The translations under genes were made by a program, and so were the position numbers. Of a DNA stretch of 64,000 bases, positions 5,489 through 56,550 are shown in pieces (positions within the stretch are counted from its first letter, which is position 1; each line of letters starts with the position of its first letter). The notes below the pieces were generated by a model that was not told the DNA's origin, ran no database searches, and saw nothing but the letters and a program-made list of their open reading frames with translations. Source of the stretch: Nitratidesulfovibrio sp. SRB-5 (GTDB lineage: Bacteria; Desulfobacterota; Desulfovibrionia; Desulfovibrionales; Desulfovibrionaceae); NCBI RefSeq assembly GCF_019931275.1, contig NZ_JAIOTY010000003.1, positions 1 to 64,000 of the forward strand, read 5' to 3'.

Positions 5489-5642
5489 GCACGTGGCGTC
5501 CTGACGAGTGAAACCCTGACGGGGGGCGTCCTGACGGGGGGCGTCCGGCGCGGCGGTCTGGACGGGGGCCCGGGCGATGTCCGCCGTCAGGCCGGTGACG
5601 CCCCGGCGGACGGATGCCGGGGCGGAATTGACGACGGGAGCG

Positions 5643-6329
5643 TCAGTTTCCCGAAGGTGTGCGCCCCTTGCCGAGGGCACGCCCCAGCACCGAGGAGAAG
5701 CCGCCGGAGCCGCGCCCGCCAGGCTGATCGGAAAGGCTTCCGGCGTCGGAAGTTGCGTCGTCGCTGCCGTGCTCATGGTCAAGGTCCTGCTCCGTGAGTA
5801 GCGTTATCTGCTGGTCGGTGACGCCCAGCAGCAATCGCTTGTTCAAGAAGCGTACCACCATGAGCCCCTTGCGCGGGCCAATGGGCAACTGCGCCTCCAG
5901 GCGCAGGTCGTCGCGCGAAAAGCCGCCCGCGCCCGGCACGGCGCGGAACAGCCCGCCGTGGCGGCGCACGGCCCACAGGGCCAGCCACAGCAGCCCCACC
6001 AGCAGGAACAGCACACCCACGGCCTGGATGTACCCGCCCCACGAAAAGGCGGGCACGGCGGCGGCGGCAAGCCCGTCGGAGGCCCCCACTGTCGCGTTGG
6101 CGTGCGCCATGGTGGCGTTCACCGCGTCGGCGGCGCTGGCCGCCACCTGGCCTGCCGCATGGGGCAGGGACTGGGCCGCGTCGCCGAGGGTGGCGTTGGC
6201 GGAAATGGCGGCGCGCACGGCGCCCTCCGCCTGGGCCGAAGCCTGAGCGGCCATGTCGGCGGCGGGACTGGTGACGGGGCTGGCGACGGAACTGGCGGCA
6301 CCCACGGCGGATTCTGTGGCGTTAAGCAA
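5643..6329 (-). CDS. fliO: Flagellar biosynthesis protein FliO
   Basis: 228 aa. An Ala-rich N-terminal region of about 90 residues is followed by one transmembrane helix (GYIQAVGVLFLLVGLLWLAL), then the FliO core with GPRKGLMVVRFLNKRLLLGV. FliO is a membrane chaperone for assembly of the FliP ring. The annotated start is TTG at 6329, overlapping the fliN stop by 8 bp; the ribosome-binding site is weak and a GTG eight codons later is an alternative. Position in the operon supports the call more than sequence, because FliO diverges quickly. Confidence 0.88.
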   Translation of the reverse strand: MLNATESAVGAASSVASPVTSPAADMAAQASAQAEGAVRAAISANATLGDAAQSLPHAAGQVAASAADAVNATMAHANATVGASDGLAAAAVPAFSWGGYIQAVGVLFLLVGLLWLALWAVRRHGGLFRAVPGAGGFSRDDLRLEAQLPIGPRKGLMVVRFLNKRLLLGVTDQQITLLTEQDLDHEHGSDDATSDAGSLSDQPGGRGSGGFSSVLGRALGKGRTPSGN

Positions 6330-53180: not shown

Positions 53181-54374
53181 ATGCAACTCACCAACCGCGT
53201 CCACTGGGTGGGCAAGATCGACTGGGAACTGCGCACCTTTCACGGGCAGGAATACTCCACCCACAAGGGCTCCAGCTACAACGCCTACCTGGTGCGCGAC
53301 CCCGGTGGCCGCACCGCGCTCATCGAGACGGTGTGGGGGCCGTACGCCCGCGAATTCGTGGATAATCTGGCGAAGGTGGTGGACCTTTCGTCCATCGACT
53401 ATGTGGTGGCCAACCACGGCGAGCCGGACCACAGCGGTTCACTGCCGGAGTTGATGCGCCACATCCCCAAGACGCCGGTGTACTGCTCTGCCAACGGGGT
53501 CAAATCGCTGAAGGGCCAGTACCACGCGGACTGGGACTTCCGGGTGATGCGCACCGGCGACAGGCTTTCGCTGGGCAGTTGCGAACTGGTGTTCGTGGAA
53601 ATGCCCATGCTCCACTGGCCCGATTCCATGATGTGCTACCTGACCGGCGAAAACGTGCTGTTCAGCAACGACGCCTTCGGCCAGCACTACGCCTCGGAAC
53701 TGATGTTCGCGGACCTTGTGGACGAGTGCGAACTGTGGGCGGAGGCCATCAAGTACTACGCCAACATCCTTACCCCGTTCAGCCCGCTGGTGACCAAGAA
53801 GATCGACGAGGTGCTGGCCCTGGGCCTTGCCGTGGACATGATCTGCCCCAGCCACGGGGTGATCTGGCGCAAGGACCCGTTGCAGATCGTGCAGCGCTAC
53901 CAGCAATGGGCGGCCAACTACGCCGAGCACCAGTTGACCGTAGTGTACGACACCATGTGGAATTCCACCCGGCGCATGGCCGAGGCCATCGCCGCCGGGG
54001 CTGTGCAGGCCGACCCCACGCTGACGGTGAAGCTGTTCAATTCCGGGCTGGTGGACAAGAACGACATCATCACCCAGATCTTCCGGTCCAAGGTGCTGGC
54101 CGTGGGGTCGCCCACGGTGAACCGGGGCGTGCTGACCTCCGTGGCGGGCCTGCTGGAAGAGGTGGAAGGGCTGAAGTTCCGGGGCAAGAAGGCCGCCGCC
54201 TTCGGCTCGTACGGTTGGAGCGGCGAATCGCCCAAGGTGCTGGCCGAACGGCTGGCCAAGTGCGGCTTCTCGCAGGTGGGCGACCCGGCCCGCGAGGCCT
54301 GGAACCCCGACGACGAAGGGCTGGAACGCTGCCGCGCCCTGGGCCGCCAGCTGGCCGAGGCCGCCGGGGAATAG
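53181..54374 (+). CDS. roo: Rubredoxin:oxygen oxidoreductase (flavodiiron protein)
   Basis: 397 aa, matching the roughly 400 aa of Desulfovibrio ROO; GGAGG lies upstream of the ATG. Diiron ligands in the beta-lactamase-like domain: HGEPDH (His79, Glu81, Asp83, His84), His145, Asp164 in FSNDAFGQH, and His225 in CPSHGVIW. The flavodoxin domain begins near 255 (LTVVYDTMWNSTRRMAEAIA), with AVGSPTVNRG and AAFGSYGWSGESP contacting FMN. It reduces O2 to water (or NO to N2O) with electrons from rubredoxin in the cytoplasm, giving aerotolerance. Single-gene unit ending in a terminator. Confidence 0.96.
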   Translation: MQLTNRVHWVGKIDWELRTFHGQEYSTHKGSSYNAYLVRDPGGRTALIETVWGPYAREFVDNLAKVVDLSSIDYVVANHGEPDHSGSLPELMRHIPKTPVYCSANGVKSLKGQYHADWDFRVMRTGDRLSLGSCELVFVEMPMLHWPDSMMCYLTGENVLFSNDAFGQHYASELMFADLVDECELWAEAIKYYANILTPFSPLVTKKIDEVLALGLAVDMICPSHGVIWRKDPLQIVQRYQQWAANYAEHQLTVVYDTMWNSTRRMAEAIAAGAVQADPTLTVKLFNSGLVDKNDIITQIFRSKVLAVGSPTVNRGVLTSVAGLLEEVEGLKFRGKKAAAFGSYGWSGESPKVLAERLAKCGFSQVGDPAREAWNPDDEGLERCRALGRQLAEAAGE

Positions 54375-54771
54375 CCGGAGGCCGGGCAAATTGATACGTG
54401 CGGGGCTGCCGGATGCACAATGCCGGGCGCGGGGAAACCCGCGCCCGGTTCAGCTTGTTGGTAATGTCTTTTGTTGGACGCCTCCGGCGGCCAAGTGGCT
54501 ACCGCCCCTTGGAACCCCGTATTTTACGATCCCCAAATGTACAGGAAATACAAACAATTTCTTCAAAGAAAGGAGCGGAGAAACAAAGCATCGTACCTCA
54601 TTCTTGTGTCGCCGTGCATCGGCGCATGGGCCTTGCCGAATTCGCCGTTCTCCCTGCTTTCATTGACGGCACGCCGCGCCACCCCCTATGACGGCCACAG
54701 GCAGACCGCGCACCGCACACACCATGCGGACCGGCCCGAGCCCTTGTCGTCACCTCCACCACGAGGAACCC
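54375..54771. other. Gene-free region with repeat remnant and AT-rich patch
   Basis: About 400 bp. 54480-54530 is an inverted family-A-like element (GCCTCCGGCGGCC then CCAAGTGGCTACCGCCCC and TTGG). 54530-54600 is AT-rich, with AAAGAAAGGAGCGGAGAAAC, which looks like a ribosome-binding site but has no start codon after it. No gene is supportable. Confidence 0.45.
54423..54448 (+). terminator. Terminator after roo
   Basis: A perfect 11-bp stem CCGGGCGCGGG / CCCGCGCCCGG with a GAAA tetraloop, followed by TTCAGCTTGTTGG. Confidence 0.75.
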
Positions 54772-56016
54772 ATGCACCGCCGCACGCCGCCCTTCGCGGG
54801 CGATTCCTGCGCCACCGGGGTCTGAGCGCCGCCGCAGGCCCCGGGCGGGGCCGCCGCGTCCCCTTCCGCCTCTTCTTTCCCGTCCGGGTGCGCACCCGGC
54901 GGGCATGCCCCTGCCGCACTGAGCCCGGCGGAACGGGCGCTGGTGGCCCGCGCCGTGCGCGACCGCTTCATCGCCGTGGCCCAGGGGCCGGAGGGCAAGT
55001 TCCGCTATCCGGTGGGTGACGCCGGGCTGGCTGGCCTTGGCTATGACGGGGCGCTGACCGACCGTCTGCCCGCCGCCGTGCGCGCCCATTTCTGCGGCGT
55101 GGGCAACCCCTTCGCCGCCGTGGACGCCTGCGTGTGGCCGCCGGTGTGCCTGCTGCCGCCACCGCCGCCCGCCGGATACCCCTCCGCTGCGGGCAGCGGC
55201 GTGCCCGGCGATATCTTTTGCGACATGCCGGACGCGGAACTGGATGCCCCGGTGCGCTTTGGCGACAATAGCGACGACGGGGCTGACAACGCGGCTGGTG
55301 ACGGCAGCCCCGCCGCCCCCCGCGACCGCTGCCTGCCGCCGGAACTGGCCGCCTGCCCGGTGCGCCCCGGAGATGCCGTGCTGGACGTGGGCTGCGGCGC
55401 GGGGGTGGACACCCTGTGCGCCGCCCTGCTGGCCGGGCCGGACGGCGCGGTGACCGGTGCCGACGCCAGCCCGCACATGCTGGACCGCGCCCGCGCCAAT
55501 CTGGCCGCCACCAATGCCGCAACGGCCCCAGTCACGCCCCCGGTGGGGCGCGTCCCGACCCCGTCCGGGCCAGACTTGTCCGGGCCAGACCCGTTGGGAC
55601 CAGACTTGTCCGGGCCAGACCCGTTGGGACCAGACCGCCAGTCCGCCCGGATCCGCTTCGTGGAAACCGGGGCCGAGTGCCTGCCCTTTGCCTCCGGCAG
55701 CTTCGACGTGGTCATTTCCAACGGGGTGTTCAGCCTGATAGTGGACAAGCCCGCCGCATTGCGCGAAATCCACAGGGTGCTGCGGCCCGGTGGCCGCCTG
55801 CGCCTAGCCGACCAGATGCTGGACGGTCCCGCCCCGCAGGGCGCGGACGTGGTGTCCAGCTGGTTTCGCTGACAGGGCGGCGCCGTACCGGGAACGGTGT
55901 TCCTGGCCATGCTCCGCGAGGCGGGATTTCACGATGCGGCCTGCCTGGGCCGCACCGGCTACCGCAGTTCGTCCGTCACCGAAGGAATGCTGTTCGCCGC
56001 CACCAGGGCGGAATAG
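54772..56016 (+). CDS. Candidate selenoprotein: SAM-dependent methyltransferase with two in-frame UGA codons
   Basis: One frame, 414 aa if both UGAs are read. ATG 54772 has GAGGA upstream. UGA-1 is at 54823 (residue 18), UGA-2 at 55870 (residue 367), stop TAG at 56014. A conventional call would be GTG 54943 to 55872. The fold is a class I methyltransferase: VLDVGCGAGVDT (203-214), GADASPHMLDRARANLAAT, VVISNGVFSLIVDKPAALRE and IHRVLRPGGRL. After UGA-2 the family C-terminus continues in frame (QGGAVPGTVFLAMLREAGF..TEGMLFAATRAE). UGA-2 falls where I expect the Cys of the W-x-x-C-x-GGA-like motif. Hairpins at 54837-54852 and 55888-55906 resemble bacterial SECIS. A 30-bp tandem repeat (DLSGPDPLGP twice) interrupts the domain. 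Alternatives: pseudogene or nonsense mutation. Confidence 0.65.
54837..54852 (+). promoter_or_regulatory. SECIS-like hairpin after UGA-1
   Basis: GGCCCC-GGGC-GGGGCC begins 11 nt after the UGA at 54823, with a possible bulged A and two more pairs below. Geometry is like the E. coli fdhF SECIS, but GC-rich DNA forms such hairpins easily. Confidence 0.3.
55888..55906 (+). promoter_or_regulatory. SECIS-like hairpin after UGA-2
   Basis: CCGGGAAC-GGT-GTTCCTGG: 8 bp with one G-U pair and a GGU apical loop, starting 15 nt after the UGA at 55870. A G/U loop at this distance is what bacterial SelB recognises. Confidence 0.45.
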
Positions 56017-56056
56017 CCCCGCCCGCGCGTCACGACACAGTACGGGAGAAACGCCC

Positions 56057-56422
56057 ATGACCACCCCGGCCGCCGCTTCCGGCCTGCCCGCCATCACCTG
56101 GGACGACTTCGAGAAGGTGGAACTGCGCACCGGCACCATCGTGCAGGTGGAACCGTTTCCAGAGGCCCGCAGCCCCGCGTGGAAGGTGTGGGCCGACTTC
56201 GGGCCGGGCATCGGCGTGCTGAAGTCCAGCGCGCGCATCACCCACCTGTACGAGGCGGACGACCTGCTGGGCCGCCAGATCATCGGCGTGGTGAACTTTC
56301 CGGCCCGGCAGATCGGGCCGTTCCGCTCGGAATTCCTGGTCACCGGCTTCGCGCAGGCGGACGGCAGCGTGGTGCTGGCCGTGCCGGAGCGGCCCGTGGA
56401 CAACGGCCTGAAGCTGGCCTAG
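56057..56422 (+). CDS. csaA: CsaA-like tRNA-binding-domain protein
   Basis: 121 aa; GGGAG lies before ATG 56057. The EMAP/Trbp111-type OB fold starts WDDFEKVELRTGTIVQVEPF and continues ARSPAWKVWADFGPGIGVLK, SSARITHLYEADDLLGRQII and VVNFPARQIGPFRSEFLVTG, all typical of CsaA (about 110 aa, homodimer). CsaA is described as a secretion-related chaperone and binds tRNA-like RNA. It lies 40 bp after the methyltransferase frame and may share its transcript. The stop codon sits within a tandem duplication. Confidence 0.93.
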   Translation: MTTPAAASGLPAITWDDFEKVELRTGTIVQVEPFPEARSPAWKVWADFGPGIGVLKSSARITHLYEADDLLGRQIIGVVNFPARQIGPFRSEFLVTGFAQADGSVVLAVPERPVDNGLKLA

Positions 56423-56457
56423 GCGACATCCGGCCTGAAGCCGGCCCAGGCAACATC
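56404..56457. repeat. 27-bp tandem duplication across the csaA stop codon
   Basis: Copies 56404-56430 and 56431-56457 are adjacent and differ at three positions. The first carries the TAG stop, which reads CAG in the second. Confidence 0.9.
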
Positions 56458-56550
56458 CGGATTGTCCTTTCGCCCGTTGGCGCTGTTGAGCACGCCGTCT
56501 CCAGCCCAACGGATTTCCGACATCATCCCCATGCATTGCAAGGTTTTTTC

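Follow-up and report, generated by a model that had tools for sequence, protein, structure and literature searches.

A predicted ArsM-fold methyltransferase of Nitratidesulfovibrio sp. SRB-5 with selenocysteine at the ArsM Cys224 position and a probable second selenocysteine on an N-terminal arm

A gene of Nitratidesulfovibrio sp. SRB-5 (RefSeq assembly GCF_019931275.1), found within the 64,000-nucleotide stretch of contig NZ_JAIOTY010000003.1 that we analysed (hereafter the window), appears to encode a genuine selenoprotein, a methyltransferase whose reading frame contains UGA at codons 18 and 367. Comparison with homologues shows that the frame is open, that the predicted protein belongs to a family with a putative selenocysteine (Sec) at the place of Cys224 of the arsenic methyltransferase ArsM, that the hairpin behind UGA367 covaries like a SECIS element, and that the genome codes for Sec machinery. 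On this comparison UGA367 almost certainly specifies Sec, and UGA18 very probably does so too. The full reading, in which translation would run from ATG 54772 to TAG 56014 with Sec at both UGAs, giving a methyltransferase of the ArsM fold with the Sec roles proposed below, we regard as probable. An earlier note, made from the DNA letters alone, had suggested possibly two Sec residues; both now look likely, the first (UGA18) being less certain than the second (UGA367).

The features of the gene are collected in Table 1. As the earlier note had reported, an ATG with a GAGGA site is followed in frame by a UGA, and the frame continues beyond the second UGA, by 47 sense codons and not the 48 that had been given. 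A gene caller stopping at UGA would truncate the methyltransferase at both ends. Simple scans of positions 54300-56500 gave no sigma-70 promoters and no intrinsic terminators, and no plasmid matches were found at E <= 1e-20. Within the methyltransferase domain, the Gly-Pro-Asp-rich insertion is built of repeated GPDLSGPDPL units in the window; it is shorter or nearly gone in three other sequences (L012, L033 and L034), and relatives outside the genus are without it.

Table 1. Features of the methyltransferase gene, in coordinates of the window
Feature	Position	Strand	Details
Methyltransferase gene	54772..56016	+	414 codons if both UGAs are decoded as Sec; stop codon TAG 56014-56016
GAGGA, Shine-Dalgarno-like site of ATG 54772	54763..54767	+	GAGG in 7/7, GAGGA in 6/7 genus sequences
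UGA18, probable Sec codon on N-terminal arm	54823..54825	+	genus conservation
SECIS-like hairpin of UGA18	54837..54852	+	6-bp stem GGCCCC/GGGGCC, loop GGGC at +17
SAM-dependent methyltransferase domain, ArsM type (predicted)	54919..56013	+	residues 50-414 (start approximate)
Gly-Pro-Asp-rich insertion in methyltransferase domain	55525..55650	+	about residues 252-293, fast-varying
UGA367, almost certain Sec codon at ArsM Cys224 position	55870..55872	+	homologue alignment, conservation
SECIS hairpin of UGA367 (predicted)	55888..55906	+	8-bp stem, loop GGU at +23

The host, which is presumably a sulfate reducer like its kin named Desulfovibrio, has the genes that such a reading presupposes. The proposed check of the genome for selA, selB, selC and selD turned up all four: selA, selB, selD and the tRNA-Sec gene (selC, anticodon UCA) each score above their family cut-offs, and selD itself contains an internal TGA. 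A genome-wide reassignment of UGA was considered and is ruled out, as four copies of the gene in the genus terminate in TGA that is not followed by a SECIS-type hairpin.

In an alignment with solved arsenic methyltransferases, residue 367 falls on a Cys, which is Cys224 of 4kw7 when counted along the printed alignment. We searched 297 genomes at class level with the profile NF041537, with no selection on UGA and at most six candidates scored per genome; 102 genomes matched at E <= 1e-30. All 33 of the 33 best matches (translated, with E <= 5.2e-60) had UGA at the residue-367 position, and of 17 weaker, ArsM-type matches that were translated, 12 had Cys and five had UGA there. A phylum-level search with the same limit of six candidates per genome covered 395 genomes, 165 of which matched at E <= 1e-35. 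Among the 25 best phylum matches, the window included, every one contained exactly one internal TGA; the site itself was read in 16 of these 25, and in a further three by way of other loci (L151, L071 and L157). The claim that this UGA sits where related methyltransferases have Cys is thus borne out in a somewhat fuller form, the close relatives having a predicted Sec and ArsM proteins a Cys (or Sec). At site 367 an in-frame UGA, with the frame continuing beyond it, faces Cys or Sec in homologues, as expected of a bacterial selenoprotein.

An ordinary methyltransferase ending at UGA367, or a pseudogene with the downstream frame as a relic, is extremely improbable. While gene callers usually read UGA as a stop, and the domain is nearly complete at this point, the frame runs through a UGA at the same place in the 33 of 33 best class-level matches, the pN/pS ratio downstream of UGA367 is 0.19-0.24, and the SECIS hairpin covaries. 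The frame is also kept in related genomes, as expected of the intact rather than broken gene that had been proposed.

Five ArsM-type proteins in the set (L085, L086, L087, L088 and L089) keep the N-terminal CC, GCG and SNC cysteines and have UGA at the place of Cys224. From their sequences, these appear to be Sec-containing ArsM proteins of another kind than the lineage of the window.

The hairpin behind UGA367, whose stem starts 15 nt after the UGA, has a folding energy of -10.2 kcal/mol and lies inside the published SECIS limits. Across homologues, nt 15-34 after the UGA at the residue-367 position can fold into an 8-bp stem capped by a loop of 3 nt. All eight pairs are present in 43 of 53 rows (51 of them distinct), one is missing in six rows, and two to four are missing in L074, L079, L098 and L120, while the loop is GGA, GGT or GGC in all 51 distinct rows. 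In a 45-column alignment of 48 distinct rows, 95.3% of stem cells were paired, against 23-67% when the partners were slid. Four versions each occur of the loop-closing pair (CG, AU, GU, GC) and of the pair fourth from the loop (GC, AU, UA, UG); the changes at these two pairs couple a second codon position with the third position of another codon. Cells changed on both sides numbered 41, compared with 15.2 in shuffles, none of 500 shuffles reaching as high a value, and RNAalifold recovered five of the eight pairs unaided. The covariance analysis that the earlier note had proposed for this hairpin thus comes out in its favour, with a stem that covaries across 51 sequences.

The same architecture was found in four FdhA genes and in selD of the genome (stems of 7-8 bp and, at +20 to +23, a GGC or GGA loop). 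Of the TGAs in the family gene set, 32 of the 35 internal ones were followed by a SECIS-type hairpin of at least 6 bp, and none of the 15 terminal ones. Since membership of the SECIS set required a motif starting with UGA, it is uninformative on how frequent UGA is at this site; the class-level count of 33 out of 33 is the informative one. Left out of the SECIS set were L088, L089, L122, L124 and L128-L130 (ArsM type) and the duplicates L105 and L107; L104, L110, L118, L119, L121, L123 and L125-L127 fell outside its motif pattern, and L085-L087 outside another motif pattern.

The earlier note had described hairpins with G-rich apical loops 11 nt beyond the first UGA and 15 nt beyond the second, and both were recovered, with the loops GGGC and GGU. 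We measured how often such structures arise by chance in the window. Of the 1,197 TGA triplets on both strands, 14, among them UGA18 and UGA367, are followed by a hairpin whose stem has at least 6 bp and whose GG-initial loop, 3-4 nt long, lies at +16 to +26. Two of the 1,197 have a stem of 8 bp or more and a loop of 3 nt. Under the looser published bSECIS limits (PMC13188914), 158 of 1,196 TGAs in this window of 68% GC pass; passing them was consequently discarded as proof of Sec. At 37 of the 1,196 TGAs, the hairpin matches that of UGA18 in stability. Because such hairpins are common in the window, hairpins alone are weak evidence, and it is the comparative evidence that decides.

On alignment and tree, the methyltransferase core belongs with the ArsM-type selenoproteins of NF041536, NF041537 and NF047649, and its motif UQGG fits the UxxG of that group. 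ArsM-type selenoproteins with a UxxG motif, double and triple ones among them, are already in print (in a table of PMC13188914), and the fused families were named by Haft and Tolstoy 2025, as cited in the same source. The window protein reaches none of the three whole-protein cut-offs; the matches are restricted to the methyltransferase part, and the protein stops where the C-terminal parts would start. With NF041537 (arsenite methyltransferase/AhpD domain selenoprotein; 258 bits, cut-off 510) it has in common the core with its UxxG Sec, but it lacks the C-terminal AhpD part with CxxU and carries its extra predicted Sec at the N-terminus instead. With NF041536 (arsenite methyltransferase/DUF2284 domain selenoprotein; 230 bits, cut-off 575) it likewise shares the core, and it has neither the DUF2284 part nor the Sec-bearing tail. 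NF047649 (methyltransferase/UXPK-star double selenoprotein; 233 bits, cut-off 460) has two Sec as well as the common core, whereas the second Sec predicted in the window protein is N-terminal and in another motif. Full members of two of these families were present among our loci: L151 for NF041537 (604 bits) and L150 for NF041536 (696 bits).

In the fused relatives, C-terminal Sec motifs take the form of CxxU plus CSSU or CSTU in L151 and L152 and of repeated PGGGUP in L150. The tail motif CSSU or CSTU lies behind the CxxU site (L151:6087 and L152:6060) and has a 7-8 bp hairpin. In L150, an ArsM/DUF2284 fusion, the C-terminal PGGGUP/PGGTUP repeats contain in-frame TGAs at 6147, 6231 and 6312, each followed by a 6-9 bp hairpin at +22/+23, and there is a further UxGG site with a TGA at 5577; this one protein possibly contains four Sec. 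A second gene of the core family occurs in Desulfovibrio sp. A2 (L035:4426-5198; also L021, L024 and L026). It has UGA at the residue-367 place and lacks the N-terminal arm; in Desulfovibrio sp. A2 its halves lie in different frames, owing either to a gene break or to an error in the draft genome.

ArsM itself (PRK11873/NF008823; PDB 5evj, 4kw7 and 4fr0; 114 bits, cut-off 263) has the fold and the residue-224 position in common with the window protein. The ArsM residues Cys72, Cys174 and Cys224, together with the N-terminal cysteines, are those we take to bind As(III). In the window protein Cys72, Cys174 and the N-terminal Cys cluster are missing, and only position 224 is kept, as the predicted Sec; the replacements in the family are YPTG for the N-terminal SCC, Val for Cys72 and Gly for Cys174. 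The family members do not all have Cys108, which lies two residues ahead of the Cys72 position. Of the earlier label of an arsenite-methylation-like enzyme, the fold therefore stands, and the canonical arsenic site does not, the other As-binding cysteines being absent.

These replacements bear on whether the protein may be a true arsenite methyltransferase that works as ArsM does, with Sec in place of Cys224. Its closest solved relatives are indeed arsenic methyltransferases, and genuine ArsM-type proteins with Sec predicted at the Cys224 place do appear to exist (L085-L089), but the latter retain the very cysteines that have become YPTG, Val and Gly in the family of the window, and Cys108 is not conserved throughout that family. 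We consider this function very unlikely.

The evidence on UGA18 comes from within the genus. Eight genomes were searched, including that of the window; the arm stretch was found in seven, as six whole genes and a contig end (L015), and G001, the eighth, yielded a single weak match. Upstream of the ATG, GAGG is present in 7/7 of the genus sequences and GAGGA in 6/7, and the Shine-Dalgarno-ATG unit and the residues MHRRTPP are kept in all seven. UGA18 itself is present in six of the seven sequences that cover the stretch. As one of these copies (L011) comes from a one-contig genome, a sequencing error at UGA18 is unlikely. In the seventh (L034), an in-frame deletion removes UGA18 together with its hairpin, and the ATG and MHRRTPP remain in frame with the domain; because L034 groups with the UGA18-bearing L033 (tree support 99/80), UGA18 was lost there, and the Sec18 arm is dispensable in this relative. 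Among the homologues compared, the arm with UGA18 had no homologue outside the genus and no form with Cys.

The stem of the UGA18 hairpin starts 11 nt after the UGA, with a folding energy of -12.5 kcal/mol and within the published limits. Its geometry (a 4-nt loop at +17) places it closer to the UGA than the five other sites of the genome (3-nt loops, +20 to +23) and resembles that of the CxxU sites in the AhpD parts of L151 and L152. Five copies agree at 33 of the 36 nt that start with UGA18, against only 11 of 21 ungapped positions in the next stretch, and the stem has no variable base in the five copies that have the hairpin whole. The pN/pS ratio falls from 0.49 in codons 1-17 to 0.17 in codons 19-29 and rises to 0.57 in codons 30-49. 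An invariance equal to or higher than that of the UGA18 stretch was, however, seen in 83 of 311 alignment windows, and four-fold sites are variable at 2 of 9 in the stretch compared with 53 of 198 overall, which is no better; invariance was discarded as too weak to prove a SECIS at UGA18. The hairpin and its conservation are on their own suggestive only. In-frame TGAs upstream near the ATG of L054, L056, L059, L061 and L064 were also considered, and are read as part of the ribosome site, not as Sec.

The spacing between arm and domain helps to decide how the N-terminal end is used. The genus sequences place the domain anchor 132, 147, 156, 153, 102 and 33 nt from codon 17, every one of these distances being divisible by three. 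This counts against a reading in which UGA367 would be the sole Sec codon, ATG to UGA18 would encode a 17-codon leader peptide, the enzyme would be translated from a GTG inside the frame (54943 or 54955), with the GC-rich hairpin being regulatory or incidental. Relatives outside the genus do start just before the domain and have no in-frame UGA after the start, hairpins as strong as that of UGA18 are not rare in the window, and the genus sequences retain GTG 54955 and its codon, as such a leader would allow. A linker kept in frame at six different lengths, and the leader joined in frame to the domain in L034, speak against it; moreover, codon 58 is GTC in L034 and is replaced by ATG GTG ATC in L033, and an internal start would lose pre-domain residues that relatives have. 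We therefore judge a leader peptide unlikely, and favour Sec insertion at UGA18 as well as UGA367.

In the mechanism we propose, Sec would be inserted at UGA18 and UGA367, each insertion being directed by the hairpin directly downstream, and the product would be a SAM-dependent methyltransferase of the ArsM fold. There is about an even chance that Sec367 acts as an active-site selenolate that binds a soft acceptor (a metalloid, metal or chalcogen) or aids its methylation beside SAM. The Gly/Pro-rich arm bearing Sec18 might serve as a flexible redox or resolving arm, doing the job of the C-terminal Sec parts of the fused kin, a role that is possible if somewhat doubtful. As a by-effect, the full-length enzyme would be made only if selenium suffices for two insertions. 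More speculative, and on balance rather unlikely, is that the core lineage is obligately Sec-dependent with a chemistry that may need selenium, and that a mobile N-terminal Sec arm, which the genus would have instead of the C-terminal Sec parts of its fused kin, pairs with the active-site Sec (as a diselenide or by bridging a metal) while acting as an early selenium checkpoint of translation; the Sec-obligate part of this idea comes from the absence of any Cys form among the 33 best class-level matches.

Genomic context was also compared. The gene has as neighbours in the window a protein with metallo-beta-lactamase and flavodoxin domains and a tRNA-binding-domain protein. In a BLASTP comparison of 22 flanks (20 flanks of 6-11 kb, the window slice and L033), setting aside three clusters that overlap the methyltransferase gene in its own and other frames, no neighbour was common to more than three. 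With no neighbours common to the family at large, the context gives no lead to a substrate. At L034:2086-3576 the methyltransferase frame reaches the next gene without a stop and continues in frame into the tRNA-binding-domain protein, whose gene stands by itself in the window.

In an open-licence library, which lacks most subscription papers, we found no N-terminal second Sec with a natural loss on a methyltransferase of this type. A lineage of methyltransferases whose active site showed, as predicted here, only Sec would allow the selenium need of an enzyme that is not an oxidoreductase to be tested directly, and the relative with the in-frame loss of the N-terminal Sec offers a natural comparison for the role of the extra residue.
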